The notes below the pieces were generated by a model. It was not told the origin of the DNA. It worked only from the letters and a program-made list of their open reading frames with translations, and did not search any database. A stretch of DNA of 41,210 nucleotides from a virus. The position numbers and the translations under genes were made by a program. The stretch lies in the IMG/VR virus record IMGVR_UViG_3300034061_003146, positions 1 through 41,210 of that record; one strand, given 5' to 3'. Positions 1 through 41,210 of the stretch are shown piece by piece; positions within the stretch are counted from its first letter, which is position 1; every line of letters begins with the position of its first letter.

Positions 1-25
1 CGCTAATTTGTTCGCAGGGGGGTAA
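1..25 (+). CDS. 3' end of a 41-aa peptide gene (partial)
   Basis: The first 25 bases hold the last seven codons and TAA stop of a reading frame whose complete version lies at 38996-39121 (ending FANLFAGG). The start is outside the window. Function unknown. Confidence 0.45.
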
Positions 26-35
26 GGGGGGCGGT

Positions 36-539
36 ATGCAAATTATCAAGATCAAGGTGGCAGACCTTAGCAACGATCCTGCCAATGCAAGGAAGCACGA
101 CGATCGAAATATAGAATCCATCGTCGCGTCGCTTCGCCGGTTCGGTCAGCAAAAGCCGATTGTCATCGACATGAACAACATCGTTCGGGCAGGAAATGGA
201 ACACTAGAGGCGGCTCGTCGTCTTGGGTGGGATTCGATCGAGTGCGTCAAGACATCGCTAAAGGGCTCTGAGGCTATCGCCTACGCTATTGCAGACAACC
301 GAACAGCAGAACTAGCCCAGTGGGATTCGGATATCCTAGCGGCCCAGCTAAGCGGCTTGCTGACCGACGATGAGGCACTAGCAAACGCGGCTGGTTTCTC
401 GACTGAGGAAATCGAGGCGATGCTAGCCAACTTTGAGCCAGGAACCGAAGACGATCAAGGCCAACTTGACACGCTAGCAGAAAAGATCGTTACTTGTCCT
501 CATTGCCAAAAGGACTTTGATTGCCGTGACCAAAGCTGA
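36..539 (+). CDS. ParB-like N-terminal domain protein, allele 1
   Basis: A 167-residue protein with a ParB/Srx-type N-terminal domain: NARKH near residue 17, FGQQKPIV at 36-43 and RAGNGTLEAARRLGW at 51-65, which takes the place of the nucleotide-binding box of partition ParB. Such solitary ParB domains in phages often sit beside DNA-modifying enzymes and terminases; their activity (nuclease, CTPase or DNA-binding) cannot be told from sequence. The C-terminus carries a small Cys cluster (CPHC at 154-157 and C163) resembling half a zinc ribbon. The second allele at 39132 is near-identical to about residue 129 and then unrelated. The 3' end overlaps the Mom-like gene. The G-rich stretch just upstream (about 16-33) supplies the ribosome site. 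Confidence 0.8.
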   Translation: MQIIKIKVADLSNDPANARKHDDRNIESIVASLRRFGQQKPIVIDMNNIVRAGNGTLEAARRLGWDSIECVKTSLKGSEAIAYAIADNRTAELAQWDSDILAAQLSGLLTDDEALANAAGFSTEEIEAMLANFEPGTEDDQGQLDTLAEKIVTCPHCQKDFDCRDQS

Positions 540-1218
540 TTTGAAAATCGATTGGGCAACGCATGAGGCGGCAAAGTATGCTTGTGAGAACTGGCACTAC
601 AGCAAGTCGCTCCCAGTGGGAAAAATGGTCAAAATAGGGGCGTGGGAAGGCGGCAGGTTTATCGGCGTTGTGATCTTTGCGTGGGGGATGAACAGGAACT
701 TAGGTAGTCCCTATGGCCTTGGGATCAGCGAATGCTGCGAATTAGTTAGGGTTGCATTGACCAAGCATAAAACCCAAGTAAGCAGGATAGTCAAGATTGC
801 CATTGCATTCCTAAAATCAAAATCCCCTGGGCTCAAAATGATTGTTTCATTTGCTGATCCGGAGCAAGGCCACAGCGGAGGCATTTACCAAGCAGGTAAC
901 TGGGTTTACGCTGGCAGGAGTTCCGGTGGTTTTGAGTGGGTGTTAAATGGAAAGCGACTAAACAAAAGGGCGTTTACAGGGCAGCAGTTTGGTGGCGGCT
1001 CAGCATCTGTAGCCAAAGTCCCGAAAGGAGCCGTCAAGCGAAAAATCTGCGGCAAGCATCGCTACCTAATGCCCCTAGATGATGCGATGCGAAAGCAGAT
1101 ACAATCACTAGCGAAACCATACCCTAAACGCGTTACAAGTGCTGACAGCGGCACGCTCGGCAATCCAGCCGAGAAGGGGCGGTGCGATTCCGACCGTAAC
1201 GCTTTTGAATCTTCATGA
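526..1218 (+). CDS. mom: Mom-like DNA adenine hypermodification protein
   Basis: A 230-residue protein resembling the phage Mom family, GNAT-fold enzymes that convert adenine in DNA to N6-methylcarbamoyl-type adenine and protect it from restriction enzymes. Visible family signatures are HYSKSLP near 24-30, ECCELVRVAL near 69-78, FADPEQGHSGGIYQAGNW near 109-126 and KHRYLMPLD toward the C-terminus. I chose the GTG at 526 because AAAGGAC lies about 11 bases upstream; a TTG at 517 is possible and would add three residues. It overlaps the end of the ParB-like gene and its TGA overlaps the ATG of the small terminase gene, so the three are probably co-translated. At the matching place in the right-hand copy sits an unrelated glycosyltransferase gene. 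Confidence 0.8.
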   Translation: MTKADLKIDWATHEAAKYACENWHYSKSLPVGKMVKIGAWEGGRFIGVVIFAWGMNRNLGSPYGLGISECCELVRVALTKHKTQVSRIVKIAIAFLKSKSPGLKMIVSFADPEQGHSGGIYQAGNWVYAGRSSGGFEWVLNGKRLNKRAFTGQQFGGGSASVAKVPKGAVKRKICGKHRYLMPLDDAMRKQIQSLAKPYPKRVTSADSGTLGNPAEKGRCDSDRNAFESS

Positions 1219-1598
1219 CAGTCCGTCAGACTCGACTATGGGAGAGAGCGTTGCGTGAGCGATGGCCAATAAAACCAGAGTATCGGGAAAAGATCATGTT
1301 TTCCCTTTTGGCGATTGTTGCCGACAAAAACGCTTCGCCACGGGAAAAGACCGCAGCGGCCAAGGCTCTAATGGCGGCGGATTCCTTGAACGTCCAGCAA
1401 GAGAGGATGGATCAAGCAGATGAGCATGAACGCAGACAGCGATTGGTGGAACTCGCTCGACAACTCAGCCCTGGAGAGGTTGCTAGGCTCTCGGCTGAAT
1501 CAGGTGTCGTCGTCGATGGCCTCATCGTTGACGAATACGACGGGGAGGAAATCGAAGGACGCGGAGAGGATGGCTCGAAAGAGGGCAGCGGAACGTGA
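1215..1598 (+). CDS. Putative terminase small subunit, allele 1
   Basis: A 127-residue, charged, probably helical protein directly upstream of and overlapping the large terminase gene, the usual place of the DNA-recognising small subunit. I recognise no classical helix-turn-helix, so the call rests mainly on position. The N-terminal 45 residues differ from the right-hand copy (40481), while ASPREKTAAAKALMAADSLN and the following 50 residues are almost unchanged. The last 60 codons are also open in the +1 frame that leads into the large terminase. The ATG overlaps the preceding TGA by four bases. Confidence 0.55.
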   Translation: MTVRQTRLWERALRERWPIKPEYREKIMFSLLAIVADKNASPREKTAAAKALMAADSLNVQQERMDQADEHERRQRLVELARQLSPGEVARLSAESGVVVDGLIVDEYDGEEIEGRGEDGSKEGSGT

Positions 1599-3651
1599 CA
1601 TAGCGATTCCAAGGCCAGCGAACATGCAGCGAAGGATCGACAGCGAACAAGACGCGAAGATTTGGCTTTCGACCTATTTCGGATCCCAGTTCTTTGAGGC
1701 ATGGACTAGCGACCGTCTAGCGATGATCGAATCAATCATCGACGCGGCCAAGTACGGTGGGGATCAAGGTATCGCAGGGCCTCGGGGCGAAGGGAAAACG
1801 ACGTTATCTATTCGCGTTGCGTTATTCCTTATGGTGCGTGGCCTATCGACATTTCCTGTCGTCATTGGCAAGAACGCCGACAAAGCAAAAAAGGAGGTGC
1901 GCGACCTAGTTGAGCAACTGCAGCAAAACGATTTGTTCATTGCGGACTATCCTGAAATCGGGATCCCATTCCAATCTGTTGGCGGTTGGTCAAGTCGCGG
2001 ACGGATGCAGACTTGCGGCGGAATGCCTACCAACATCGTCATCGGGCCGGAATTCTTTGTCTTCCCTACGATCAACCGCGGGCAGATCCCCGATTGGCCT
2101 AAAGAGATCGAGCCTGCTTCATGCGGCCAGGTGCTTTACTCTCTGGGCATCGATGGTGCGATCCGAGGTACTAAGTATCGAAGCAGGCGACCAACTCTTG
2201 CAATAATCGATGACATCGAAGATAGGGAAGCAGCAGCAAGCGAAACGACCATCGAGAAGAACGAGGAGGTAATCGAACAAGACATTGCGGGGTTAGGTCA
2301 GTCCTCAGAGCGGATCCCTCGGGTCATGCTTTGCACGATTCAAAACAGAAAGTGCATTGCGTATCGTTACACCGATCCGAAGATCAAGCCATCTTGGAGG
2401 GGCAAGCGATACCGCAAGCTCGTTACCAAGCCGGATCGGATGGACTTGATAGAGAAGTACATCGACATGAGAAAGGGACGCAAGGACGACGATCCTGACG
2501 CTCGGGAGGCTTTCCGCTTTTGGCGTGACAACCAAAAGGACATCGAGCGGGGATCTGTCGTTAGCAATCCGCATAGCTACAGCAAAAAGACTCACAGCGA
2601 CGGCGAGCCGATGGAATTGTCAGCGGTGCAAAGCTATTTCAATCGAGTCGCAGACGTAGGCCAAAAGGCGGTATCGACCGAGATTGACAACGATCCACCA
2701 GAGGAAGCCGGGCCAATGGGCCTTGGAATAACTCCGGCTCTTGTTGAGTCGAGGATAAGCGGTTTAGTTCGTCGTCAACTACCAGCTAACACGGTGGCAC
2801 TGACAGCGGCGATCGACTTGGGCAAGTATTACCTTCATTGGGTTCTTATCGCCTGGTGGCATGGGGCCGGAGGTGTTGTGGTTGACTATGGTATCCATCA
2901 GGTTTACGGAACAGACAAGAGCATGAATCACGAAGCTAGTGAGCCGATGATCTATCAGGCTCTCTTGAGCCTTCGGGACGAGTTGCTAACCAAAGAGTTC
3001 AGCGACACAACAGGCACTCGGCGAACGATCGATTTTTGCTTTGTGGATTCAGGTGCGTTTACCAATGCGGCTTACCAGTTCTGTCGTGAGGTCGGCGGGA
3101 TATTTCATCCGTCGAAAGGTCAAGACCCATACCATCGAAAAGCCAAGTCAACATCGACAACTATCGCAGGTGCCAACCTACACGCTCAAAAGTTGCCATC
3201 GTCCAATGTTTGGTTGTATGAACTGGACACAAGCTATTGGAAGCAATTCATCCACGAACGGTTTATGACGCCGACTTTCGACGAATCGAACATGCTTCGG
3301 CGCGGTTCGCTTTCGTTGTTTGCACTTGAGGAAGAACGCAGACATTCACAGTACTCGCAACATATCGCAGCCGAAGAGCTCGTGACTAAATTCACTGAGG
3401 GCAAGGGGGCTAAGACCTACTGGATGGTCAAGGATTCAAATAATCACTGGCTCGATGCGACCTACATGGCAGCGGCGGCTAGTGAGGCTTGCGGGGTCAA
3501 GTTGATTGCTCCAAGTGAGATCGAGGTGCAACCGAAGCACGTTAGCGGCGATCAGCAAAAGCAAACAAAGCCAGCACAGCAGGCTTACAGGCACGGCCAG
3601 CAACGATTCAAACAGAGACAAGGTGGATGGATTCCCAAGCGGAGAGGATGA
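1570..3651 (+). CDS. Terminase large subunit (gpA-like packaging ATPase/nuclease)
   Basis: With the ATG at 1570 the protein has 693 residues. Walker A is GPRGEGKTTL at about 70-79, and a Walker B-like LAIIDDIED lies near 209. A C-terminal half with AIDLGKYYLHW and CFVDSGAF looks like the RNase H-type nuclease of phage terminases. It pumps DNA into the prohead through the portal and cuts the concatemer. The frame is open back to an ATG at 1420, which would add 50 residues and overlap the small subunit by 179 bases. Both copies keep that extension open, but it varies more than the small-subunit frame, so I prefer 1570. A lambda-like gpW and portal follow, which supports the gpA-like assignment. 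Confidence 0.88.
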   Translation: MARKRAAERDIAIPRPANMQRRIDSEQDAKIWLSTYFGSQFFEAWTSDRLAMIESIIDAAKYGGDQGIAGPRGEGKTTLSIRVALFLMVRGLSTFPVVIGKNADKAKKEVRDLVEQLQQNDLFIADYPEIGIPFQSVGGWSSRGRMQTCGGMPTNIVIGPEFFVFPTINRGQIPDWPKEIEPASCGQVLYSLGIDGAIRGTKYRSRRPTLAIIDDIEDREAAASETTIEKNEEVIEQDIAGLGQSSERIPRVMLCTIQNRKCIAYRYTDPKIKPSWRGKRYRKLVTKPDRMDLIEKYIDMRKGRKDDDPDAREAFRFWRDNQKDIERGSVVSNPHSYSKKTHSDGEPMELSAVQSYFNRVADVGQKAVSTEIDNDPPEEAGPMGLGITPALVESRISGLVRRQLPANTVALTAAIDLGKYYLHWVLIAWWHGAGGVVVDYGIHQVYGTDKSMNHEASEPMIYQALLSLRDELLTKEFSDTTGTRRTIDFCFVDSGAFTNAAYQFCREVGGIFHPSKGQDPYHRKAKSTSTTIAGANLHAQKLPSSNVWLYELDTSYWKQFIHERFMTPTFDESNMLRRGSLSLFALEEERRHSQYSQHIAAEELVTKFTEGKGAKTYWMVKDSNNHWLDATYMAAAASEACGVKLIAPSEIEVQPKHVSGDQQKQTKPAQQAYRHGQQRFKQRQGGWIPKRRG

Positions 3652-21563: not shown

Positions 21564-21777
21564 AGAACCAACGCCACCACCGCCACCCATAAGGCTTGTG
21601 AATCACCCCAAAGCCGAGTTTGCCTTGCTTCTAGCTATGCGGTGGAGGCAAGAGCAGCTAAGAGGCGACAAGATGGCGGAAAAGTCTTGCTGTCTCGCTC
21701 TTTGCTTAGACCTCGACGAGATAATTCGCGACATAGCGAACCCACCAACCTCACCCCCACCACCGAGGAAACAATAG
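21553..21777 (+). CDS. Proline-rich small protein
   Basis: A 74-residue protein with proline runs at both ends (TPPPPPIR and TSPPPPRKQ) around a helical centre with two adjacent Cys. It overlaps the previous gene by eleven bases and ends two bases before the exonuclease gene. Function unknown. Confidence 0.55.
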   Translation: MTTKEPTPPPPPIRLVNHPKAEFALLLAMRWRQEQLRGDKMAEKSCCLALCLDLDEIIRDIANPPTSPPPPRKQ

Positions 21778-21779
21778 CC

Positions 21780-22592
21780 ATGAGTGACTACTACGCCAAC
21801 AAAGCCCTATCGCACTCCAAGCTATCCTGCTTGGCTCAGAATCCGATGGAGTTTCGGATGCGTTACGTTGACGATCCGCCAAGCTTACCGCCGAAAGAAT
21901 CCGACGCTTTCGCGATGGGTCATGCTGTCCATTGTTTGGCACTTGAGCCTGAGAAGTTCGACGAGCGTTTTGCGGTTGCCCCAAAGGTTGACAGACGAAC
22001 GACAGCGGGCAAGGTGGCATGGGCTGAATACCTGGCTGACTGCGAAGGCAAAACAGTCCTCGATGAACAGGATCACGCCGACGCGATCGCTTGCGTCCAG
22101 GCGTTGAACAATCACCCTGAGTTTGCGACGATCATGGCGCAACCTCGGCGGGTCGAAGTGCCTTTTGAGTTCGATCTGTTCGGGCATCGCTTCAAAGCCA
22201 AGCCTGATTGCATTGTGGACTCGATGCGGTTGATCGTTGACATCAAGACAACCGACGACGCGAGCCCCCATAAGTGGCAATGGTCGGCGGTTGATTATGG
22301 GTATCATCGGCAAAAGTACATTTATCAACAGGCTGTTTATCTTGAAACGGGCGAATCGTATCAGTTTATCTTTGCGGTGGTCGAGAAGCCCAAGCCATCA
22401 ACGAGAGGCATACCTCCAACTGTCGCTCTGTATGAGCTTGACGGAGAAGCAACCAGAATGGGGATTCAGGATACTGCGGGACTCATCCTGCAATATGAAA
22501 AGCGACTAGAGACGAACGATTGGAAGCAACCCTACAGCAACGGGCTGAAGGTGTTGAGCTTGCCAAAGAGAAGGGTTTATTCGGAGGAATAG
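21780..22592 (+). CDS. RecE-like exonuclease (PDDEXK family, exodeoxyribonuclease VIII type)
   Basis: From ATG 21780 the protein has 270 residues. LSHSKLSCLAQNP at the start, FAMGHAVHCLALEP near 42-55, the nuclease core GHRFKAKPDCIVD and LIVDIKTT, and the later QAVYLETGE are the recognisable pattern of RecE/DUF3799-like 5'-3' exonucleases. Asp of KPD and Asp-x-Lys of DIKTT are the metal and catalytic residues. It makes single-stranded 3' ends for the RecT-like protein encoded next. An upstream in-frame start at 21642 lies inside the previous gene and is rejected. Confidence 0.85.
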   Translation: MSDYYANKALSHSKLSCLAQNPMEFRMRYVDDPPSLPPKESDAFAMGHAVHCLALEPEKFDERFAVAPKVDRRTTAGKVAWAEYLADCEGKTVLDEQDHADAIACVQALNNHPEFATIMAQPRRVEVPFEFDLFGHRFKAKPDCIVDSMRLIVDIKTTDDASPHKWQWSAVDYGYHRQKYIYQQAVYLETGESYQFIFAVVEKPKPSTRGIPPTVALYELDGEATRMGIQDTAGLILQYEKRLETNDWKQPYSNGLKVLSLPKRRVYSEE

Positions 22593-22594
22593 AA

Positions 22595-23476
22595 ATGAGT
22601 ACAGACATCACAACAGAACCAAAAAAGGAAACCAAGGCTCTCAGCAAGCCAGCAGCATTCCGTCAAACTGCGTTGAATTTCGCAACGATGGTGCTTACTG
22701 ATTGGGTCGGCGAAGATCGAGCAAGGGAAGCGGCTGGACGCATCAGCGTTGCTCTTTCGGCTGCAAGATCATCGAGCAAGAAGCCTGAGGATTTCGACGA
22801 ATGCCTAAGCACACCGCAAGGGCAGGAGTCGGTCGGTCGAGTAATCGCAATCGCGGCTCTTACCGGCATGATGCCAAGCACTGGCGCGGGGGCTCTTGCG
22901 TTTGCAATCCCTAGATCAGTTCGGCGAGGTGAGCCTAAGCAACTGTTTTTTCAGTTGTCGCATCGAGGGCTAAACGCTTTAGCGAATCGAGCGGGTATGC
23001 ACATGGTCGCAACGCCAATTGGTTACGATGACAAGATCAAGATCGGAGCTGACGGGACTTGCGAAATTGAGTCGATCGATTTCGACAATCCGCCGATTTC
23101 ATTCGATGATCTTCGCGGTGTTGTCTTGTCGGTCAAGATTCGCGACACTGGTACGGTTATCCATACCGGATTCGTAGCTAAAAAGTTGATCGAGAAACGC
23201 AGGGCCAATAGCGATGGATATAACTACGCAGAGAAACCCGGCAACGACTTTGCGAAGGACTCTGATCCCTGGCACAAGTGGCCAATTGAGCAAGCGATGA
23301 AGACGGCGATGCATTATGCAATTGGGCGCGGATGGTGCATTATCGATGACACTGAAAGCGTTCGAGCGTTGCAGGCTGATATCCAAAGCGATAACCGGAC
23401 GATCGATGCGGAGTACGTTAAGCGCGTCACGCTCCAAAAGGTTGACTTACCAGCGATCGAAGGGCCAGCGGAATGA
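22595..23476 (+). CDS. recT: RecT-like single-strand annealing protein
   Basis: A 293-residue protein from ATG 22595 with GGAGGAATAG upstream. It contains the RecT core: IAIAALTGMMPSTGAGALAF, QLFFQLSHRGLNALANRAG, RGVVLSVKIRDTG, WHKWPIEQAMKTAMHYAIGRG. Together with the exonuclease gene three bases upstream it forms a RecE/RecT-like pair for homologous recombination and concatemer processing. Confidence 0.88.
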   Translation: MSTDITTEPKKETKALSKPAAFRQTALNFATMVLTDWVGEDRAREAAGRISVALSAARSSSKKPEDFDECLSTPQGQESVGRVIAIAALTGMMPSTGAGALAFAIPRSVRRGEPKQLFFQLSHRGLNALANRAGMHMVATPIGYDDKIKIGADGTCEIESIDFDNPPISFDDLRGVVLSVKIRDTGTVIHTGFVAKKLIEKRRANSDGYNYAEKPGNDFAKDSDPWHKWPIEQAMKTAMHYAIGRGWCIIDDTESVRALQADIQSDNRTIDAEYVKRVTLQKVDLPAIEGPAE

Positions 23477-31985: not shown

Positions 31986-32350
31986 AAAAAGGCGATAAAG
32001 TTTGGGTGTTGTGCTTAGTGCTGGAAGTTGAGAATAATTCTGTACTCGTTTGCGGAAGTGCCGATAAATCATGGTGGGTTCGCGATAAAGACTGCAATCC
32101 CGTCGAGCCAGAAGCGGTTGAGCAACGTACCAGCGATCCGGTCAACCCTTCGCACTACAAGCAATTACCGGCAGAGACGATCGACATCATTGAAGCAGCA
32201 ATTGCTAAAGCACCAAACAACAAAGCGGCGGGATTGCATTGGCAAGTTCTCAAGTACGTTTTGCGATGCTGGTTCAAAAACGGCATCGAGGATCTTAAAA
32301 AGGCTCGATGGTATCTCGATCGATTGATTCAAGAGGAGGAAGCGAAGTGA
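31982..32350 (+). CDS. DUF3310-like protein (SaV nucleotide kinase-type)
   Basis: A 122-residue protein. The last 70 residues match the pattern of the DUF3310 family common in phage replication regions: NPSHY, ETIDIIEA, WQVLKYVLRCWFKNG and DLKKARWYLDRLI. The first 45 residues form a small SH3-like barrel (GDKVWVLCLVLEV). The biochemical role is not established; it occurs near replication and resolvase genes. Confidence 0.78.
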   Translation: MKKGDKVWVLCLVLEVENNSVLVCGSADKSWWVRDKDCNPVEPEAVEQRTSDPVNPSHYKQLPAETIDIIEAAIAKAPNNKAAGLHWQVLKYVLRCWFKNGIEDLKKARWYLDRLIQEEEAK

Positions 32351-32712
32351 TAATCATCGAGCTACCATACCCCGATAAAGTCAACAGTCACAACAAAGGG
32401 CACTGGGCAACGAAATCAAGTGCAGTCGCCAAGATGAGGCATCAAGCCAAATTAGCGGCAATCGATGCGATAAATCGAAGTGGAAAGCGGTTTGCCGGGT
32501 CGCATCAAATCAGCTATTGGTTTACGGTCAAGGACAATCGCAGGCGCGATCTAGCCAACATGATTCAGCAATGCAAGCCCTACATTGATGGCATCGTTGA
32601 CGCTGGGCTAATTGCTGGCGATCATTGGCAGATATCATCTATCGGGGCTGTTTCTGTCTGGATTGATCCGCCTAGCTACGGAGTTAAGATCGTGATTGAG
32701 GAACAAAAATGA
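32347..32712 (+). CDS. rusA: RusA-like Holliday junction resolvase
   Basis: A 121-residue protein from GTG 32347, overlapping the previous gene by four bases. It has PYPDKVNSHNKGHWA at the start and the RusA core KDNRRRDLANMI, YIDGIVDAGLIAGDHW, with Asp63, Asp68, Asp81 and Asp92 as the likely metal ligands. It would resolve four-way junctions made by RecE/RecT recombination or replication. Confidence 0.85.
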   Translation: MIIIELPYPDKVNSHNKGHWATKSSAVAKMRHQAKLAAIDAINRSGKRFAGSHQISYWFTVKDNRRRDLANMIQQCKPYIDGIVDAGLIAGDHWQISSIGAVSVWIDPPSYGVKIVIEEQK

Positions 32713-32906
32713 CGCAACGAAAAAACATCTCGCAACCTAAGGAAGCTTGGGTGGCATGGGATCGAGCAGCGGCAAAAATGGACATGACTTTAAGCCAACT
32801 GATTTTTGAGGCAATGAACGAGCATTTAGGCTTGTTTTTGCCACGAAAGGCCAAGAAGCGACCAAAGACAGCTAAGGCGGCTCGGAAGCGGGAGAAGCGA
32901 ATTTAG
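32709..32906 (+). CDS. Small basic protein, possible DNA-binding
   Basis: A 65-residue protein: a helical part (WVAWDRAAAKMDMTLSQLI) and a Lys/Arg tail (KAKKRPKTAKAARKREKRI). The first part resembles ribbon-helix-helix proteins. Overlaps the RusA-like gene by four bases. Confidence 0.5.
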   Translation: MTQRKNISQPKEAWVAWDRAAAKMDMTLSQLIFEAMNEHLGLFLPRKAKKRPKTAKAARKREKRI

Positions 32907-32964
32907 GGCCGTTGCTTGCAATTTCAGCGGGTCAAGCCTAAAATGCGGGAAAGGAGCAGAAATC

Positions 32965-33153
32965 ATGAACATCGGTGATTTATTCAAATCGAAGCGTTTT
33001 TGGGCGGCGGCGGCTACGATTGCCGTCGTCGTCCTCAAGGACAAGACCCCGTTGACTGAGGATCAGATTCAGCAACTCGTCTGGGTTGTTGGTGCATGGA
33101 TCGTTGGCGATTCTGTTCGGCCATTGCCGAAGCCTGACGAGGTGACCAAGTGA
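32965..33153 (+). CDS. Small two-span membrane protein, holin candidate
   Basis: A 62-residue protein after AAAGGAGCAG with two hydrophobic spans (FWAAAATIAVVVL and QLVWVVGAWIVGD). Starts the lysis/envelope cassette and ends SVRPLPKPDEVTK. Size and topology fit a small holin; proof is lacking. Confidence 0.5.
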   Translation: MNIGDLFKSKRFWAAAATIAVVVLKDKTPLTEDQIQQLVWVVGAWIVGDSVRPLPKPDEVTK

Positions 33154-33464
33154 GTCGCGTGAAATTTGCTGACAGGCTCAAGGCACGTCGAGCGGCTCGG
33201 GAAATCTGGATCGCTAGGCGATCGGATCCAACCGTGGCTGACCTCGTTGCAAAGACCATCGACGGCGACGAGGAAGCTGGAAAGCTTTTGTTTGGCTCGC
33301 ATCCTGAGTTGGTTGGCATCGATCCGGCTACGCTGTTTTTGCTCATCCAGATCGCGTTGAAGCTTTGGCTATGGTGGCAATCGCAGAAGATCGAGAATCC
33401 TTCGGAAGATGTTGCCGTTGGCGAGCCTTTCGATTCCACAATCAGCGACGACGACCAAGACTAA
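33150..33464 (+). CDS. Membrane-associated protein of the lysis cassette
   Basis: A 104-residue protein from GTG 33150, overlapping the holin candidate. It has a basic N-terminus, then one hydrophobic span (PATLFLLIQIALKLWLWW near 68-85) and an acidic tail. It could act with the holin candidate; no family recognised. Confidence 0.5.
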   Translation: MSRVKFADRLKARRAAREIWIARRSDPTVADLVAKTIDGDEEAGKLLFGSHPELVGIDPATLFLLIQIALKLWLWWQSQKIENPSEDVAVGEPFDSTISDDDQD

Positions 33465-33551
33465 GCCCAGATCGCAACGACTACCTACTAACCTTCAATC
33501 CTTACAAGCGGGTTAGTCGGAGCGAGACGGGCGATACACAAGGATGGATTG

Positions 33552-33929
33552 ATGGCTGAGAAGCAAAAAGAAAACTGCTTGCCTTGGATCGTCGCAGCGT
33601 TGGCGGTCTTTGCGATGTTGCGTAATCAGCAACCGCAACCGGATAAGTCGCGACCGAAGGAACTCAAGGCGGTCGTCTCTCAGACATTGCCAAGCATTCG
33701 AGCGGCGTGGAAGCAGGTTTTTCTTGATGCGGCAGCGAAGATCGAATCGGGCGAAATCGCCAACCAAGAGCAATGGACGAAGTTTATCTCGGACAATGCG
33801 GGCGGCAAGAATCGCGAAGCTATGGACAAGGTTTACTCGGCCATTGACAAGCTAGATTTGCCTGCAAGCTTCGCCGGCAAGGAATCAGAGATCGCTAAGA
33901 TCAATCGGGAGATCGCTCAAGCATGGTAA
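33552..33929 (+). CDS. Membrane-anchored protein of the lysis cassette
   Basis: A 125-residue protein from ATG 33552: N-terminal hydrophobic anchor (LPWIVAALAVFAML), then a Pro/Gln hinge and a helical domain probably facing the periplasm. The gap before it (33465-33551) holds only a hairpin (33487-33493 with 33511-33517). Function unknown. Confidence 0.55.
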   Translation: MAEKQKENCLPWIVAALAVFAMLRNQQPQPDKSRPKELKAVVSQTLPSIRAAWKQVFLDAAAKIESGEIANQEQWTKFISDNAGGKNREAMDKVYSAIDKLDLPASFAGKESEIAKINREIAQAW

Positions 33930-34066
33930 GCGTCCTGTCGGCTTTTGCGATTACTTCTGTAGTGTGCTTCGGCGCGTTGGTGCTTGTGCTGATTGTCGAT
34001 AGTGCTGCTACGATCATCATCGATGCCATCAAGACTCTTACCAAAAGGGTGTTTTGGGATGATTAA
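33923..34066 (+). CDS. 47-residue membrane peptide
   Basis: ATG 33923 overlaps the previous stop. It has a long hydrophobic span (AFAITSVVCFGALVLVLIV) and a short basic tail. Overlaps the next gene by eight bases. Possibly part of the holin/antiholin set. Confidence 0.45.
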   Translation: MVSVLSAFAITSVVCFGALVLVLIVDSAATIIIDAIKTLTKRVFWDD

Positions 34067-34217
34067 AGACACCTTGAAAATCGGTTTAAAGTGCTTGCTG
34101 TTCGTCGCTTTTTTTCCGTTCATGCCGTTGATATTCATTCACTGTGTTCTTGAGGAACTGATTTCTGCAATCGGGCATCTTGTGGAAAGATTAGAGGATC
34201 GAATCGATGGAATTTGA
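34059..34217 (+). CDS. 52-residue membrane peptide
   Basis: ATG 34059; product has one hydrophobic span (CLLFVAFFPFMPLIFIHCVL) followed by an acidic helix. Overlaps the peptidase gene by eleven bases. Candidate holin-like or regulatory peptide. Confidence 0.45.
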   Translation: MIKDTLKIGLKCLLFVAFFPFMPLIFIHCVLEELISAIGHLVERLEDRIDGI

Positions 34218-35025
34218 GTTCACAGGCTACGATCCAACCATAGAAAACCGCGACGCGATACTATCGCAGTCGATCGAAATCGGATTTACATTCCGCGACT
34301 ACGAAGCACCCGAGGAAGTCGATTTCCGCAAGTTGATACGCCATGACAACCAAGGCAACATGGGCTCCTGCGGTGGATTTGGTAACACGAATTGCGGCGA
34401 AGGTCTTTGGGCATTGCATACTGGCTCGATGAGCAACGATAGGCAACTGTCGCCATTGTTCAGTTATCTTGAGGCTCAACGTCTTGATGGTCTCTTGGGT
34501 CGCGATGCTGGATCTACGATCAACAGCGGGCTCAAGATTAGCAAGGAAGTTGGATATCTTGAGTTGAAAGACCTTGAGTACAAGACTCCATACCCAAACA
34601 ACGCTCGGACACTCATAACCGCCGAAATGAGGGCTAAAGCGGATCGATTTCAGGTTCGATCATCCACTTGGCTCGATTCCTACGATGCCATCAAGAATTA
34701 CATGGCATCGCAAGTTGGTGTTTGCTATGTGGGCACAATTTGGAACCAGTCGTTTTATGGTCGCAATGGCGTACTAGAATCAATCTCGATGGTCAATGGC
34801 GGAGGACATGCGTATTGCTTTGCAGGCTACAGCAAACGCAAAGACTCTAAAGGACGCAACTACATTTGGCGGTTAAACTCGCACAACGATTCTTGGACTG
34901 AAATTGCTCCATCGGTCATAGATGCTCTTTGTAAGCATCAATGGACATCGATTGTGGGCGTGTCGGATCTTTCAACGCCAGGGCCCCGGAAGGTGTCTTG
35001 GATGAAGGACAGGCCACTAGAATGA
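34207..35025 (+). CDS. Papain-like (C1 family) cysteine peptidase
   Basis: A 272-residue protein with the papain catalytic set in order: Gln49 (DNQGNMGSCGGF), nucleophile Cys55, His202 (GGGHAYCFAGYS) and Asn225 (WRLNSHNDSW). The N-terminal 45 residues are a short lead without a signal peptide, and there is no inhibitory propeptide. It stands between holin-like membrane peptides and other envelope genes, where an endolysin would normally be. I infer that it cleaves host envelope protein for lysis; it could also process virion proteins. Confidence 0.8.
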   Translation: MEFEFTGYDPTIENRDAILSQSIEIGFTFRDYEAPEEVDFRKLIRHDNQGNMGSCGGFGNTNCGEGLWALHTGSMSNDRQLSPLFSYLEAQRLDGLLGRDAGSTINSGLKISKEVGYLELKDLEYKTPYPNNARTLITAEMRAKADRFQVRSSTWLDSYDAIKNYMASQVGVCYVGTIWNQSFYGRNGVLESISMVNGGGHAYCFAGYSKRKDSKGRNYIWRLNSHNDSWTEIAPSVIDALCKHQWTSIVGVSDLSTPGPRKVSWMKDRPLE

Positions 35026-35459
35026 ACCTTAGCAACGGAGAAAAGGGAATGTTTGCCGTGATTGGTCTTTGCTTGCTTAGTTGGTTTTTTGGATCGAGTC
35101 CAAAGCCTGATCCAACTCAGTGCGATATTCCATCGAGTGACCTTGTTGGACAGGTCGCAACTGTTCGAAATTCTCTAACGGTTCAACCCGCTCCGGTTGA
35201 CGATCCCAAGCCAATACCAAGCCCAAGCGACAAGCCATTGAGGATCGAGATATTGGTGTTCGTTTCCAAGAATTGCCCACCTTGCGAAAAGTGGAAGCGA
35301 TGCGAAATGCAAAAGTTCTTGGATGCAGGATGGCAAGTCGGTATTGTTGAAGATCATCCGTTTCCGGTCACTCCAAGGTTTGAGGTCTCCAAGGGATCGG
35401 AGCGTAAGGATCACGTCGGTTACTTGACTTTTGAGCAGGCGAAAGGGTTGGTAAAGTGA
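35022..35459 (+). CDS. Membrane-anchored thioredoxin-like protein (CPPC)
   Basis: From ATG 35022 (overlapping the peptidase stop) the protein has 145 residues: a hydrophobic N-terminal anchor (MFAVIGLCLLSWFFG), a Pro/Ser-rich hinge, then a compact thioredoxin-like domain with KNCPPCEKWKRC (C85 and C88) and a following VEDHPFP and FEV segment. CPPC is typical of reductive or exchange thioredoxins. If exported it would act on disulfides at the cell envelope, perhaps on the Cys-rich tail protein or the peptidase; this is inference. Confidence 0.65.
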   Translation: MNLSNGEKGMFAVIGLCLLSWFFGSSPKPDPTQCDIPSSDLVGQVATVRNSLTVQPAPVDDPKPIPSPSDKPLRIEILVFVSKNCPPCEKWKRCEMQKFLDAGWQVGIVEDHPFPVTPRFEVSKGSERKDHVGYLTFEQAKGLVK

Positions 35460-35794
35460 TAGGACAGATTGACCCATCGCAGGCTAAGGAATGGCTGACA
35501 GAAAGCAACTACACGGTAGCGGGCGTGTTGCTTGTCATCTTTGTTTGCTTCGGTCTTGCTGTTTGGCGTGTGATAAGCTGGATCGGTCGCGAATTCGTGA
35601 TTCCCGGTAGGGATCGAATGTTTCGTCATTTGGATCGAGTTGATGACACGATGAAGGATGTTTCGACCAGTTTACAAAAGCTTGCTACGGTTCCAGAGAG
35701 GCTTGATGGAATCGAGGAAAAGGTCGAAAGCATATCTCTCCGAGTCAAACAGATAGACGCGAACATGGGGCACGATGGAGGGCCTAGAAAGTGA
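35456..35794 (+). CDS. Membrane-anchored coiled-coil protein
   Basis: A 112-residue protein from GTG 35456: one transmembrane span (VAGVLLVIFVCFGLAVWRVI) and a long coiled-coil tail (MKDVSTSLQKLATVPERLDG). This resembles spanin- or BhlA-like lysis helpers in layout. Overlaps both neighbours by four bases. Confidence 0.5.
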   Translation: MIGQIDPSQAKEWLTESNYTVAGVLLVIFVCFGLAVWRVISWIGREFVIPGRDRMFRHLDRVDDTMKDVSTSLQKLATVPERLDGIEEKVESISLRVKQIDANMGHDGGPRK

Positions 35795-36318
35795 TCGAGT
35801 GGATCCTATTTATTATCCTGTCATTCCTCGCAGCTGACTTCGTTGCCGGTGTATTCCATTGGTGGGAGGATTCGTACCTGGATCAAGATACGCCGATTTT
35901 TGGCAGGCTCATCGGTGGGCCAAACCAGTTGCATCACAGCGATCAGTATGCATTCTTGAAGGGCTCATACTGGCATCGCAATTACACAACCATTATTCCA
36001 TCGATGTTGGCTTGTGGCGCGTGCCTTTGCTTTGATGCGACACAAGACGCATGGCTGACGTTTTTGTTCCTGTCCCAAGCCAATCAGATTCATGCTTGGG
36101 GGCACTCTAAAGGGCGGAACGGCTGGTTGGTATCGATGGCTCAACGATGTGGCATCCTGCAATCGTGCAAGCATCATGCGGAGCATCATCGTTCGCCCTA
36201 TCATATCCGGTATTGCGTAATGAGTCCGATGCTTAATCCGGTGCTCGATGCGATCGGTTTTTGGCGGTACATCGAGTACGTTGTTTTTGTGACTACCAGA
36301 ATTGAGGCGCGAGTATGA
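35791..36318 (+). CDS. Kua/TMEM189-type lipid desaturase (CarF/PEDS1-like)
   Basis: A 175-residue membrane protein that matches the Kua / TMEM189 (PEDS1) and bacterial CarF family, which introduces the vinyl-ether double bond of plasmalogens. Its His pattern is preserved: H23 (VFHWWEDSY), H48-H49 (NQLHHSDQ), H101 and H105 (NQIHAWGH), H128-H129 and H132-H133 (CKHHAEHH), then a YHIRYC and LDAIGFWRYIE ending like human TMEM189. Hydrophobic spans lie at 4-20 and about 66-82 and 86-98. It may remodel host membrane ether lipids. It is encoded in the lysis cassette and overlaps both neighbours by four bases. Confidence 0.82.
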   Translation: MIEWILFIILSFLAADFVAGVFHWWEDSYLDQDTPIFGRLIGGPNQLHHSDQYAFLKGSYWHRNYTTIIPSMLACGACLCFDATQDAWLTFLFLSQANQIHAWGHSKGRNGWLVSMAQRCGILQSCKHHAEHHRSPYHIRYCVMSPMLNPVLDAIGFWRYIEYVVFVTTRIEARV

Positions 36319-36887
36319 ACGACGAACCATTGATTGAAGAACTTAAAAAGCCTATTTACAGCTACCTAAGCGACCAAGAATCGGCGGATTTAATAAACGC
36401 CTTGACGGTGCGGGTCGCATCGAATGTCAAAATTGTCGATGTGCTTAAGTATGCCGTTGACCAAGGCATCTACGGCAAGGTTAACGCAGATGCGTTTGAT
36501 CCTTCGCTTCCTAGAGACCAAAGGAATGCGATTTGGAATATCAAGGGTTGGGTTGACAACCCGAGCAACCCATCTGAGGTTGCCGACATGAACTCACAAA
36601 CAGCAGCAACGATGATTTCGCACTTGGTGCAATACGGCTACGCAACCGAGAGTCAAGCTCAAGAACTCGCTGGGATGGGCTTCAAAACGATCCGGTGGGT
36701 CGATCATGTTGGTATCGGCACTCAGTCGGCTGATTCGATTCGGGTGGCTAGGGATGTACTCAACGGGGCAGCGGCTAAGCGTGCCCTGTACACGCAGCAA
36801 AATATCGATCGCTACAACTCAACGCAAGCGATCATTGACCAATACAAACATGGCGATGAGGATCTGGTGATAAGTGGCAATCTCTAG
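36315..36887 (+). CDS. Hypothetical protein of the fibre region
   Basis: A 190-residue protein, helical, with YLSDQESADLINALTV and a VDHVGIGTQSADSIRVAR segment. The start is typical of a small group of phage proteins near tail fibre genes. No catalytic motif recognised. Confidence 0.5.
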   Translation: MNDEPLIEELKKPIYSYLSDQESADLINALTVRVASNVKIVDVLKYAVDQGIYGKVNADAFDPSLPRDQRNAIWNIKGWVDNPSNPSEVADMNSQTAATMISHLVQYGYATESQAQELAGMGFKTIRWVDHVGIGTQSADSIRVARDVLNGAAAKRALYTQQNIDRYNSTQAIIDQYKHGDEDLVISGNL

Positions 36888-37527
36888 AGTCGGTTCAGCA
36901 TCAGCACAAGCAACTACAATCACAATCCCAACGCATCAAAGCGGGGATCTGATCTTGATCGTTGCTAACAGAAACAACTCGACAGCGGCGACAATCCCTA
37001 GCGGCTGGGTTGCGTATTCTGTTAGCGGAACCAATGTTAGTTCCGCAATCGGATGGAAGCTAGCTGAATCGTCAAGCGAAGTTAGCGGCACTTGGACTAA
37101 CGCGTCAGTGTTGCATTGTGCGGTCTATAGGGCCAGCGGAATACTTGCGATTAGTACTGCGGTTGCATCAACAGGAGCAAGCAGTTCAACGATTATTTAT
37201 CCAGGCTTAGGAAACTATCGGGCCGGCGTTCTTGATAATTGGTACGTCGCAACGGCGATCCAACTCAATTCGACCAACAGCCTTGAAACGGCTCCAAGCG
37301 GCATGGCTAACATCAACGTAGAATCGTCGTCAGGTGTCTGGAAGTCGGTATTACACGATACAAACGCAAGTCAGTTAAGCAACTGGGCATCGACAAACGC
37401 GACTCTGACGACCTCGGCAACTTACGCAAGCCGAGTCTTGCAATTAATCGAGTTTGACGGGCCTGCGTTTGGTGGTGGTGGTGGAATATTTTTCCGGCCA
37501 GGAATGAGCGGAGGGATGAGCGAATGA
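36874..37527 (+). CDS. Putative tail fibre/receptor-binding protein
   Basis: A 217-residue protein from GTG 36874. Nearly all short beta strands rich in Ser, Thr, Ala and Asn, ending with a glycine run and FFRPGMSGGMSE. The composition suggests an Ig- or jelly-roll-like adhesin. It overlaps the next, larger fibre gene by four bases. Confidence 0.5.
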   Translation: MAISRVGSASAQATTITIPTHQSGDLILIVANRNNSTAATIPSGWVAYSVSGTNVSSAIGWKLAESSSEVSGTWTNASVLHCAVYRASGILAISTAVASTGASSSTIIYPGLGNYRAGVLDNWYVATAIQLNSTNSLETAPSGMANINVESSSGVWKSVLHDTNASQLSNWASTNATLTTSATYASRVLQLIEFDGPAFGGGGGIFFRPGMSGGMSE

Positions 37528-38999
37528 GACGTAAAATCAAGGCTGGTTTAACATCGCTTTCGCTTCCTGTTATCGTCTACGATACCGCATCGACCACGGG
37601 CGGGGGGTTGAGCGGATTGACGCATACAACGAGCGGTCTTGTGCTCGAGTATCGAAGGCAAGGGCAATCGTCTTGGACATCGGTTACGCTCGTCTCAAAA
37701 ACCCTCGGTACTTACGTCTCAGGCGGTATCGTCGCGAGTGGATCTAGGGCTGGTAGGTACGAGATTGACATACCTGATGCGGCTATCGCTGCGGGTGCTC
37801 GGATGGTCGAGGTATGCCTGAGGGGTGCTGCGAATATGCACCCTGTTGACATCGAGATCGAGCTTGATGCGGTTGATTATCAGGATGCGGCGGCGTTTGG
37901 GCTATCGCGAATCGATCAGACCATCGGAAGCCGAGCGACGCAAACCAGCGTTGACGCGATCGATGATTTTGTGGATACCGAAGTGGCAGCAATTAAGGCT
38001 AAAACCGATTTGATTGTGGCATTCCCAGATAACTTCAGCAATCTTGCTATCACAATTGACGGGGCAATTGCCGAACTTGGGTCGAACGCACTTGCGGCCA
38101 ACGACCTCTACGCGCCGATCGCTCAAGCGGTTTGGAACTCATTAACGACTGCAACATGGGAAAACAATAGCTTTGGTAAGCAAGTGCTCATCGGGGCCAG
38201 CACTCAGCGAACAGTCGCGGTGACAGGATCCCATCACGTTGCGGCGGTTCTTCACGATGCCGAACCTAATTCGATTCCCGAAGATGCTTTTGCAACAGGT
38301 GCTTTGTCGGCTAGGGCTTTAGCAGCTGATGCAGCTACAGAGATTGCTACGGCGGTTGCAGCTACTCAGGCCCTTACTCGGCTCGATAGCATGATCGAAT
38401 CCGATGGAGCGGGGCAATTCCGGTTCGATACGATTGCTTTGGAGATGGCCCCATCCGTTGGAGGCGGTGGCGGCGGGACGGATTGGACAGCGAACGAGCG
38501 AACCGCTATCCGGTCGATTCTCGGCATACCAACGAGCGGAACAACGCCAACGGATCCAACGGTGGGTATCTTGGATGAGATTCGGGATAAGACGGCGTTA
38601 ATCACAGCGGGCGGTACGGTAAACGTAACGACTCCGGTTACATCGTCAGGTCAACTCGCAAGCCCATTGGTTATTGGGGATGATTACCTAGCGGCAAATG
38701 GACGGCGGTTTCGATGGACGGTGGAACTACCCAGCGGCTACGTTATTGCCACTTCAACGGCTCGATTCGGAATGCGGTACGAGGACGATGAAGGCGTCAA
38801 TTCCTTCATCGCTACAGGGACTGTGACCGACGCAACAGGCGGGAATGTCCATTTAGATTTTGACGTTGCCAAAACCGTTACAGGCACGCTCAGGCCTGGA
38901 TGGTACGAATGGTCTGTCGAGATCGTCAGTGCTATAGGCGTTAAGATAACACGGGTCAAGAGCGGCAAGAATGCTGAGTGGCAGGAGAAGCAAACATGA
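37524..38999 (+). CDS. Putative tail fibre protein
   Basis: A 491-residue protein. The N-terminal 115 residues form a beta domain (YEIDIPDAAIAAGARMVEV), followed by an Ala/Asp-rich helical stalk (120-330), a Gly hinge (GGGGGGTDW near 316) and a C-terminal strand-rich domain (330-491). This order fits a trimeric fibre with a distal binding head. On a circular map it sits just upstream of the ParB/terminase cassette. Confidence 0.6.
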   Translation: MRRKIKAGLTSLSLPVIVYDTASTTGGGLSGLTHTTSGLVLEYRRQGQSSWTSVTLVSKTLGTYVSGGIVASGSRAGRYEIDIPDAAIAAGARMVEVCLRGAANMHPVDIEIELDAVDYQDAAAFGLSRIDQTIGSRATQTSVDAIDDFVDTEVAAIKAKTDLIVAFPDNFSNLAITIDGAIAELGSNALAANDLYAPIAQAVWNSLTTATWENNSFGKQVLIGASTQRTVAVTGSHHVAAVLHDAEPNSIPEDAFATGALSARALAADAATEIATAVAATQALTRLDSMIESDGAGQFRFDTIALEMAPSVGGGGGGTDWTANERTAIRSILGIPTSGTTPTDPTVGILDEIRDKTALITAGGTVNVTTPVTSSGQLASPLVIGDDYLAANGRRFRWTVELPSGYVIATSTARFGMRYEDDEGVNSFIATGTVTDATGGNVHLDFDVAKTVTGTLRPGWYEWSVEIVSAIGVKITRVKSGKNAEWQEKQT

Positions 39000-39121
39000 T
39001 GACAGCTACGCCCCCCTATTTTGGGGTCCTTTCAGCGACATGGACTTTTGGTACGCAGACCATTAGCACGAAAAAACAAGAGAAAGTTCGTCTGTTCGCT
39101 AATTTGTTCGCAGGGGGGTAA
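38996..39121 (+). CDS. 41-residue peptide coupled to the fibre gene
   Basis: ATGATG 38996 overlaps the fibre stop by four bases; the product ends VRLFANLFAGG. The same 3' end opens the window. A G-rich segment (39112-39130) around its stop leads into the ParB-like gene. Function unknown. Confidence 0.5.
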   Translation: MMTATPPYFGVLSATWTFGTQTISTKKQEKVRLFANLFAGG

Positions 39122-39131
39122 GGGGGGCGGT

Positions 39132-39764
39132 ATGCAAATTATCAAGATCAAGGTGGCAGACCTTAGCAACGATCCTGCCAATGCAAGGAAGCACGACGAT
39201 CGAAATATAGAATCCATCGTCGCATCGCTTCGCCGATTCGGTCAGCAAAAGCCGATTGTCGTTGATATGAACAACATCGTTCGGGCAGGCAATGGAACAC
39301 TAGAGGCGGCTCGTCGTCTCGGATGGGATTCCATCGATTGCGTTAAGACCGATCTAAAAGGCTCTGACGCAATCGCCTACGCCATCGCGGACAATCGGAC
39401 ATCAGAATTAGCCGAGTGGAATTCCGACGTTCTAGCGGCTCAATTAAACGGCTTGCTGGCCGACGATGAGGAATTAGCGAATGCAGCTGGTTTCACGGCG
39501 GAGGAAATCGAGGCGATGGGTCTGATTGACGAAGAATCAAGTGAATCGGAAAGCGACGGAAAGCTATCACAATCCCTGCAGCTTGAGCCAGGAAAAGAGT
39601 ACATTCTGATTACGTTTTCAGATGCAATCGAATTTGACGAGGCAAAAGAAACGCTTGGCCTAGAGTTGGTTCGGAGAGGGGGATACAAAGACGGATCACC
39701 GTTCGATGCAGTTTCGACAGAAAGAGTTTTGACTTGGGATCGAGTGAAAGGATTGCTAGTGTGA
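39132..39764 (+). CDS. ParB-like N-terminal domain protein, allele 2
   Basis: A 210-residue protein from ATG 39132 (an upstream in-frame start lies in the preceding peptide gene). Residues 1-129 are almost the same as allele 1. After EEIEAM it continues with an acidic linker (GLIDEESSESESDG) and a 65-residue domain (EYILITFSDAIEFDEAKETL) absent from allele 1, and it lacks the CPHC cluster. Its stop overlaps the GTG of the glycosyltransferase gene. The shared N-terminus and changed C-terminus suggest that the C-terminal part matches the partner enzyme. Confidence 0.8.
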   Translation: MQIIKIKVADLSNDPANARKHDDRNIESIVASLRRFGQQKPIVVDMNNIVRAGNGTLEAARRLGWDSIDCVKTDLKGSDAIAYAIADNRTSELAEWNSDVLAAQLNGLLADDEELANAAGFTAEEIEAMGLIDEESSESESDGKLSQSLQLEPGKEYILITFSDAIEFDEAKETLGLELVRRGGYKDGSPFDAVSTERVLTWDRVKGLLV

Positions 39765-40480
39765 TATTCGCGGTTCCATCAAAAGGAAGGGCGGGGAAAG
39801 TCAAAACGCTAGACGTGCTTCCGTTCGCTAAACTATTTGTGCCTGAAAACGAGGTGAGGTCTTATGTAAAGTTTTATGGTAAGAATGCGGTAAATGCGGT
39901 ACCGAATACAGTTTCAGGAATAACAAGGACACGAAATTGGATTCTTGACAATTGCGGGTTCTCAGATGTGGTTATGGTTGATGACGACGTAAAGCAGCAA
40001 GGATGGGTTAAAATGCTTGAGTCGCAATCCAAGCACCAGAAGCTCAACGGGGATCAGTGGCTAGCGGAAGCGGAAAAGCTTTTCGAGATCACTCGGCAAA
40101 TGAAGTACAGACTGTGGGGCATTGCAACTCAGTCAGCTAAAAGATCGGTATATCCATACAAGCCTTTTCTGTTCAAGTCTTATGTGACAGCTAGTTTCTG
40201 CGGGATATGCAACGAAAGCGGAATTCGATTTGACGAGTCGTTTCCGGTCAAAGAAGATTACGAAATGAATCTTCGATGCGTAGTAGAAGATGGAGGAGTG
40301 GTTGCGGCTAGGTATCTTTACTGGGAAAACAGCCACTGGACAGACGATGGGGGATGCAAGGACTACAGGACGCAAAAAATGGAAAAGGATTGCATCGACA
40401 GGCTTAAAGCTAAATACCCGTCGATGGTAAAACGAATCGTTAGAGGCGGTTCTGATTTTTCGATTGAGTTGGTTTTTTGA
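39761..40480 (+). CDS. GT-A glycosyltransferase, TET-associated (TAGT)-like
   Basis: From GTG 39761 the protein has 239 residues. It begins MIFAVPSKGRAGK, has ITRTRNWILDNC near 54-65, a DDD metal-binding motif in VVMVDDDV (74-76) and a conserved acidic FPVKEDYEMNLR near 161-172. This layout recalls the phage TET-associated glycosyltransferases (related to the base J glucosyltransferase), which add sugar to hydroxymethylated pyrimidines in DNA. No TET/JBP or hydroxymethylase gene is visible in this window, so the base modified is unknown. It occupies the position of the Mom-like gene in the left copy. Confidence 0.65.
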   Translation: MIFAVPSKGRAGKVKTLDVLPFAKLFVPENEVRSYVKFYGKNAVNAVPNTVSGITRTRNWILDNCGFSDVVMVDDDVKQQGWVKMLESQSKHQKLNGDQWLAEAEKLFEITRQMKYRLWGIATQSAKRSVYPYKPFLFKSYVTASFCGICNESGIRFDESFPVKEDYEMNLRCVVEDGGVVAARYLYWENSHWTDDGGCKDYRTQKMEKDCIDRLKAKYPSMVKRIVRGGSDFSIELVF

Positions 40481-40861
40481 ATGCTTCGCGAAACAAGACG
40501 ATGGGAGAAAGCATTGAGAGAACGATGGCCAATACCCGACGCAATGCGAAGCGTCATAGTCAAGTCGCTAGCAAAAATCTTGCTAGATGCGGATTCGTCG
40601 CCACGGGAAAAGACAGCAGCGGCAAAAGCTTTGATGGCGGCGGATTCCTTGAACGTCCAGCAAGAGAGGATGGATCAAGCAGATGAGCATGAACGCAGAC
40701 AGCGATTGGTGGAACTCGCTCGACAACTCAGCCCTGGAGAAGTTGCTAGGCTCTCGGCTGAATCAGGTGTCGTTGTCGATGGTTTCGTCCTTGACGAGTG
40801 CGATTCCGAAGAAATCGAAGGACGCGGAGAGGATGGCTCGAAAGAGGGCGATGGATCGTGA
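40481..40861 (+). CDS. Putative terminase small subunit, allele 2
   Basis: A 126-residue protein starting one base after the glycosyltransferase stop. The first 45 residues differ from allele 1 (MLRETRRWEKALRERWP), while SPREKTAAAKALMAADSLN and what follows are the same, with differences again near the C-terminus (GFVLDECDSEE). It overlaps the large terminase start. Confidence 0.55.
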   Translation: MLRETRRWEKALRERWPIPDAMRSVIVKSLAKILLDADSSPREKTAAAKALMAADSLNVQQERMDQADEHERRQRLVELARQLSPGEVARLSAESGVVVDGFVLDECDSEEIEGRGEDGSKEGDGS

Positions 40862-41210
40862 CCTATCCATCCCTCCACCTCTCGATCCTGCTCGTCGGCT
40901 CAAGTGCGAGTCTGATCCAGCTTTATGGCTCTCGACCTACTTTCCCGAAAAGTTCTTCGAGGGCTGGACTGAGGATCGCTTGGCGATGGTGCATTCGATC
41001 ATCGATGCGGCTCGTTACGGCGGGGATCAATCGATTGCCGGGCCTCGGGGCGAAGGCAAGACGACGCTTGCAATTCTAACGGCTCTTTACTTGATGATCC
41101 GTCGGCTTTCGACCTTTCCGGTCGTCATCGGAAAGAACGCCGACAAAGCAAAAAAGGAGGTGCGCGACCTAGTTGAGCAACTGCAGCAAAACGATTTGTT
41201 CATTGCGGAC
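40833..41210 (+). CDS. Terminase large subunit, allele 2 (5' part, cut by window end)
   Basis: ATG 40833 begins MARKRAMDRDLSIPPP and runs off the window after 126 codons. It shows the same Walker A, GPRGEGKTTL. The first 95 residues differ from allele 1 at many positions; the last 26 codons are identical in DNA. The frame is also open upstream to 40684 as in allele 1. Confidence 0.85.
   Translation, partial: MARKRAMDRDLSIPPPLDPARRLKCESDPALWLSTYFPEKFFEGWTEDRLAMVHSIIDAARYGGDQSIAGPRGEGKTTLAILTALYLMIRRLSTFPVVIGKNADKAKKEVRDLVEQLQQNDLFIAD

Follow-up and report, generated by a model that had tools for sequence, protein, structure and literature searches.

A cos-adjacent slot with alternative DNA-modification enzymes and matched ParB-like adapters in a group of metagenomic phages

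Exchange of modification genes near the terminase genes is a known kind of phage variation, because related cases have been described in two phage groups. In a Mu-like cryoconite phage, near-identical backbones carry variable modification genes in the packaging module, including a methyltransferase versus an acetyltransferase (PMC7468147). In Tequatroviruses, the T4 beta-glucosyltransferase and the T6 TAGT replace each other at syntenic positions (PMC13390438). The role of Mom in restriction evasion is established, and in phage Mu the zinc-finger protein Com activates translation of the enzyme (PMC6483171). Enterococcus phage phiEf11 carries a ParB-Mom pair close to the terminase genes, counted across the ends of its record, and Streptococcus phage Javan291 has the gene order ParB-TAGT-HTH ORF-terminase. 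TAGT genes of other phage lineages frequently precede a terminase gene; among 28 downstream genes, 8 encode Terminase_4 small subunits, and some of the rest resemble Nu1 or a large terminase. A 2013 analysis of phage base-modification systems reportedly linked ParB, TAGT, and terminases.

Here we analyzed an entire 41,210-base IMG/VR contig (the window), classed as linear and as a complete record, which carries a ParB–enzyme–TerS–TerL locus at both ends, with a Mom enzyme in the left copy (variant A, WA) and a TAGT glycosyltransferase in the right copy (variant B, WB; Table 1). As in the cryoconite phage, the variants are co-present in one metagenome; neither a glycosyltransferase nor cos mapping nor matched ParB adapters appear in the accessible part of the cryoconite report (PMC7468147), whereas in the window group four or more enzyme families use a single cos-adjacent slot. 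Like the different DNA glycosyltransferases of the T4/T6 case, the enzymes here alternate at one position in close relatives, but the T4 and T6 enzymes both belong to one hydroxymethylcytosine pathway (PMC13390438), whereas the window's chemistries are unrelated (Mom, methylation, and glycosylation) and a hydroxymethyl pathway was not found. The cultured-host phages phiEf11 and Javan291 have the same gene pairs beside their terminases as the window; unlike the window group, each represents one arrangement and gives no sign of exchange. The literature searched did not contain a cos-adjacent slot used by several enzyme families with matched ParB adapters, and within this search, whose coverage was incomplete, the combination of a cos-adjacent slot, several chemistries, and matched adapters is new.

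Table 1. Features of the packaging loci and of the backbone in the window
Feature	Coordinates	Strand	Evidence and remarks
Left shared arm	1..127 = 39097-39223	.	127 identical bases, divergence after; last 127-mer before variants A and B part
ParB-like, variant A	36..539	+	Shared N-terminal domain and Mom-type zinc-ribbon C-terminal adapter (CPHCQKDFDC); phrog_620 1.8e-42; PF02195 E 2.2e-4
Mom-family DNA-modification enzyme	517..1218	+	PF25680 2.5e-45; phrog_1384 9.5e-55; profile match to PDB 8bv8 2.6e-37
Putative TerS, variant A	1215..1598	+	Between cos and TerL; variable N-terminus, conserved C-terminus
Large terminase, variant A	1420..3651	+	Lambda gpA-type nuclease domain PF20454 3.5e-21; phrog_15, phrog_38
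Right shared arm	1870..1947 = 41133-41210	.	78 nt exact, within TerL
RecE-like PD-(D/E)XK exonuclease candidate (DUF3799)	21642..22592	+	PF12684 1.1e-29; backbone
RecT-family single-strand annealing protein	22520..23476	+	PF03837 2.7e-9; backbone; candidate exchange driver
cos cohesive end CAGACCATTAG	39056..39066	.	11 nt; left genome end starts at 39056, right end finishes at 39066
cos-proximal leader with repeated GTTCG	39067..39131	.	GTTCG two to three times in 10/10 cassette-bearing contigs with located cos
ParB-like, variant B	39132..39764	+	Shared N-terminal domain and TAGT-specific C-terminal adapter (EYILITFSD...VRRGGYKDGSPFDAV); phrog_620 9.2e-37
TAGT-family GT-A glycosyltransferase	39734..40480	+	PF20691 6.5e-13; phrog_842 4.8e-25; D83-D84-D85 motif
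Putative TerS, variant B	40481..40861	+	N-terminus differs from variant A, C-terminus the same
Large terminase, variant B	40683..41210	+	Cut by contig end; phrog_38 9.6e-10; 81.3% nt identity to variant A

Two variants joined through a cos site

Sequence comparison confirmed the two exact repeats that had been noticed in an original prediction, which was made from this DNA and took the two ends for a swap of modification enzymes between near-identical phages. The wider left flanks (1-422 versus 39097-39518) are 89.6% identical and the wider right flanks (1335-1947 versus 40598-41210) 81.3% identical, with E values of about 1e-160, far past chance, and the sequence between these flanks is unrelated in the two copies (Mom ORF, 517-1218, versus TAGT ORF, 39734-40480). 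Flank alignments and profile searches also bore out the shared ParB-like and terminase genes around both enzymes, and the enzyme starts given earlier (526 and 39761) are correct up to alternative start codons (517 and 39734). Near-identity of the phages fails for the window pair, with flanks 81-90% identical, and is seen in contigs L005 and L006 for a Mom versus a methyltransferase cassette.

Analysis of contig ends located a cos site between the two copies. At least 17 contigs (about 20), comprising 15 distinct sequences, share one exact start base (CARAYCATTAG...), shortly before the ParB or TerS gene, and right-end contigs finish directly behind the same 11 nt. Among them, L225 matches window 31524-39066 with 100% identity. 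In the right-end contig L272 (IMGVR_UViG_3300034198_018541), an untrimmed Illumina adapter, AGATCGGAAGAGCG, follows instead at the contig end, marking a physical phage DNA end. The common starts and stops together with the adapter therefore define physical genome ends and a cos site, and the 11-nt end on both sides would represent filled-in 5' overhangs. Fixed ends beside the terminase genes and the gpA-type nuclease domain identify a cos-packaging phage with a lambda-type terminase, and a lambda-type portal gene follows the lambda-gpA-like large terminase. Given this cos position, 39067-41210 belongs to a second genome unit, as its left end.

The leader next to cos differs between groups, with GTTCG repeats in cassette-bearing contigs (Table 1) and GTTAG twice in all 31 cassette-free contigs with a located cos. 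Judging from the sequences, these repeats may be TerS-binding sites that change along with TerS. A third leader class has CTTGC repeats. In some cassette-free relatives, zinc-finger/HNH-like ORFs lie across cos, after the last gene (L018 1624-2741, L022 1660-2777, and L034 1595-2457).

The exact block common to both variants is 179 nt long and ends at 39223, and the contig starts at the last 127-mer of this block. Contig L085, which comes from another metagenome and carries Mom, matches window 1-2394 with 100% identity and has the 179-nt block in common with the TAGT version. A start at the last shared 127-mer fits a k=127 assembly graph branching between two strains, with the assembler and its k-mer length being presumed here; the 78-nt right overlap is not accounted for by k=127. 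We conclude that the contig is one cos-phage genome of ~39.1 kb with a Mom cassette (1-39066), to which the leftmost 2.1 kb of a co-assembled TAGT variant are joined through cos, and is not one two-cassette genome. Since two variants are joined in this way, the contig alone is no evidence for a swap.

The presence of Mom and TAGT on one contig would also be expected of a single phage that uses both enzymes, either because its packaging locus is duplicated or because it has a large terminal redundancy whose copies have diverged. Such a phage is hardly credible: no other contig of the set has both cassettes, and cos-to-cos packaging would give one cassette per virion because the copies lie on opposite sides of cos. 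The duplicated-locus reading was rejected on the cos site between the two copies. The other reading is that of a pure assembly artefact, in which two distantly related phages were fused at the conserved 127-bp stretch and no biological swap took place. It would explain the contig start at the last shared 127-mer, the flanks diverged to 81-90%, and the different right end of L085 (48-64 matching bases per 200 in ungapped blocks, >600 nt before cos) despite its identical left end. This account is true of the join but not of the slot, since alternative enzymes lie between the same arms in many separate contigs from different metagenomes; moreover, the join point is the mapped cos, and contig L017 repeats the right end-cos-TAGT order with 96% identity over window 38859-41194. 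We therefore consider a pure artefact improbable.

Cassette enzymes and their ParB-like partners

The Mom family call was supported by PF25680, whose score of 155.1 bits against a curated cutoff of 27.1 covers the whole domain (residues 9-204 of 2-202/202), and by the match to the solved structure of Mu Mom (8bv8), which has an E value of 8.2e-10 from the single sequence and 2.6e-37 from a profile of 14 relatives. Mu Mom, a methylcarbamoylase, belongs to the same family and aligns over the whole domain, and the Mom of phiEf11 is 54% identical to that of the window. Residues H27-Y28-S29 and D114/Y124 are invariant in the 14 relatives, and the HYS and SFAD...YQA motifs are kept in comparison with Mu Mom, where the equivalent residues presumably have a catalytic role. 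From its sequence, the window Mom is predicted to install a modified adenine. The zinc-ribbon end of the variant A ParB overlaps the mom start (517-539), recalling the Com/mom arrangement of Mu.

The right-hand enzyme was assigned to the TAGT family by PF20691, with a score of 49.5 bits against a curated cutoff of 27.5 (residues 13-207 of 4-205/205), and D83, D84, and D85, a DxD-type motif, are invariant in 38 TAGT sequences. The TAGT of Javan291 is 24% identical to that of the window. An AlphaFold model from a 38-sequence alignment reached a pLDDT of 89.1 and replaced a model from 5 sequences, which was unusable (pLDDT 38). Comparison of this model with viral models (BFVD) revealed TAGT-domain proteins and a phage beta-glucosyl-HMC-alpha-glucosyltransferase as the best named matches, with TM scores of about 0.7-0.8, consistent with the family call. 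Matches to PDB structures were weak and to GT-A enzymes, and no sequence relative of TAGT was found in the PDB. The family part of the predicted "TAGT-like hypermodification" thus stands, whereas hypermodification itself is uncertain because neither TET (PF12851) nor a thymidylate-synthase-type hydroxymethylase (PF00303) turned up when the window and 15 larger TAGT contigs were searched, a search in which records may be fragments and TET control genomes fell below the cutoff.

The same absence, together with the weak similarity of the GT-A fold to cell-wall and polysaccharide glycosyltransferases, would be compatible with a TAGT-like protein that modifies a glycan or a protein rather than DNA. 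We regard this as rather unlikely, as TAGT is almost always paired with a ParB adapter and occupies the same slot as Mom and the methyltransferases, and its best viral fold matches are those named above.

Comparison of the ParB-like proteins revealed a constant N-terminal domain and a C-terminus that changes with the enzyme. They are called ParB-like only, since the window proteins score 21.6-22.4 bits against the curated PF02195 cutoff of 26.3. The C-terminus is a zinc ribbon for most Mom types, and a different domain takes its place in the divergent Mom type (L016, L037, and L176); each TAGT type has a C-terminus of its own, and the methyltransferases are fused directly. Of 61 TAGT relatives for which the sequence extended far enough, 57 have the TAGT adapter upstream, and a shared ParB N-terminus is detectable in 45 of the 57; none of the non-TAGT ParBs of the set contains this adapter. 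Because the adapter pairing is one-to-one, we infer that each ParB recruits its enzyme. A bolder reading, which we offer as a tentative and rather doubtful one, is that the ParB N-terminal domain serves as a universal cos-end socket into which enzymes plug via matched adapters, so that modification would be targeted from, or coordinated with, packaging, the chemistry would be changed by joint exchange of adapter and enzyme, and the TAGT branch would glycosylate DNA without a TET or hydroxymethylase step.

Slot contents and mosaic junctions among relatives

Relatives were fetched from viral contigs via the terminase, the ParB N-terminus, and the last gene. The slot was then censused in 45 contigs having a ParB N-terminus (≥60% identical) followed by TerS or TerL, with the two window ends counting as two and Pfam run on representatives of each cluster. 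The slot gene is a DNA-modification enzyme in 45/45 of these ParB-anchored loci: Mom in 24, a ParB-fused N6/N4-methyltransferase in 14, TAGT in 5 (three of the window's type and two of a second type), and a C5-methyltransferase in 2, the last in more distant relatives. Other relatives have TerS immediately after cos, without a cassette. The search for relatives with each cassette that had been proposed as a check thus recovered both, plus further enzyme types, between the same arms. A complete genome with TAGT was not recovered from the core group; the sole match in a DNA search against cultured phages was 233 bp of mom in phiEf11, and no relative appeared when 84,980 bacterial and archaeal genomes were searched for a host with the terminase and the capsid.

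Downstream of the slot, the variant A putative TerS has no Pfam match and no convincing PHROG match. The true start of the variant A TerL is probably 1570; cassette-free relatives match this protein only from residue about 51. An in-frame extension of TerL upstream of this start shares ~180 nt with TerS (1420-1598).

Mosaic junctions are visible at the nucleotide level. The exact left 127-mer of the window is followed by a different enzyme in each of three contigs, namely Mom (L085), TAGT (L017), and a methyltransferase (L006), and the right 78-mer is also exact in L005, L006, and L085. Contigs L005 (Mom) and L006 (methyltransferase) are 99.4% identical across 2,710 bp past the cassette, and WB (TAGT) and L009 (Mom) are 99.1% identical across 576 bp of TerS/TerL. 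Conversely, the Mom cassettes of WA and L009 are 99-100% identical between flanks of 83-89% (left) and 59-71% (right) identity, and the methyltransferase cassettes of L006 and L013 show the same pattern of a conserved cassette with diverged flanks. Cassette type is correlated with the ParB flank (permutation p 0.0006), whereas no correlation with the TerS/TerL flank was detected (permutation p 0.12-0.24, with the identical lineage L085 left out). The exchanged unit takes in the enzyme-specific ParB C-terminal adapter, and the TerS C-terminus block is the best conserved arm, with 91.5% mean pairwise identity versus 77.0% just beyond it. Alternative modification genes between the same flanks in close relatives, as observed here, characterize a modification-cassette exchange island of the type in PMC7468147. 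The predicted swap of unrelated modification enzymes at a fixed site is supported by independent contigs and not by the window contig itself. The core-group evidence consists throughout of short-read metagenome assemblies with arms long enough to share k-mers, so the cassette linkage in any single contig could be chimeric.

The slot might instead vary solely through selection on terminase specificity, by exchange of TerS and cos, with the modification enzymes as passengers. TerS N-termini do vary too, the cos-proximal repeats (GTTCG versus GTTAG) follow the TerS class, and variable islands of other phages often include terminases (PMC7468147). However, the leaders are all of the GTTCG type in the cassette-bearing group although the enzymes differ, both TerS N-terminal types occur with one enzyme (for example, the second TAGT type in L014, which is contig L160, and in L031), and each slot carries a modification enzyme rather than random cargo. 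Exchange driven by the terminase alone thus has little probability. Much the most probable explanation is a real exchange slot. It is bounded on the cos side by the constant ParB N-terminal domain, which lies ~75 bp from cos, and on the other side by the C-terminal half of the small terminase-like gene, which is conserved; through these arms, co-infecting relatives would swap adapter and enzyme as a unit.

Proposed exchange and its meaning for the phage population

In the proposed exchange, co-infecting relatives would recombine in the conserved arms, with the ParB N-terminus on the left and the TerS C-terminus and TerL on the right, so that adapter and enzyme would pass as one unit. The RecE/RecT-like backbone proteins (the RecT-family protein and the PD-(D/E)XK exonuclease) probably help this exchange, and the adjacent cos end could supply DNA ends for recombination. 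The matched ParB would then recruit the incoming enzyme, and the swap would alter the base chemistry of the genome and hence which host nucleases can cut it; protection from restriction is an extrapolation for enzymes other than Mom.

The backbone also encodes an 845-aa fusion of an SNF2-like helicase and an N6/N4 DNA methyltransferase (27426-29963), so each variant probably has more than one modification activity. Other backbone genes include a member of the lipid desaturase family PF10520 (35791-36318; E 1.5e-39), odd cargo for a phage and also present in L160, from a family that we take to include plasmanylethanolamine desaturase-type enzymes. The window further encodes an Erv1/Alr-type sulfhydryl oxidase domain (17035-17670; PF04777, E 4.7e-10) and a papain-type peptidase domain (34207-35025; PF00112) with overlapping Kelch-motif matches.

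The window is a concrete example of a "single" assembled viral contig concealing two coexisting variants, and its mapped cos end makes the locus easily recovered from metagenomes. The consistent pairing of ParB adapter and enzyme, if confirmed, is a testable rule for the recruitment of such enzymes. If the exchange slot is likewise confirmed, one small site keeps several unrelated genome chemistries on one backbone in the phage population, and success of a bacterial restriction system against one variant would not imply success against the next.
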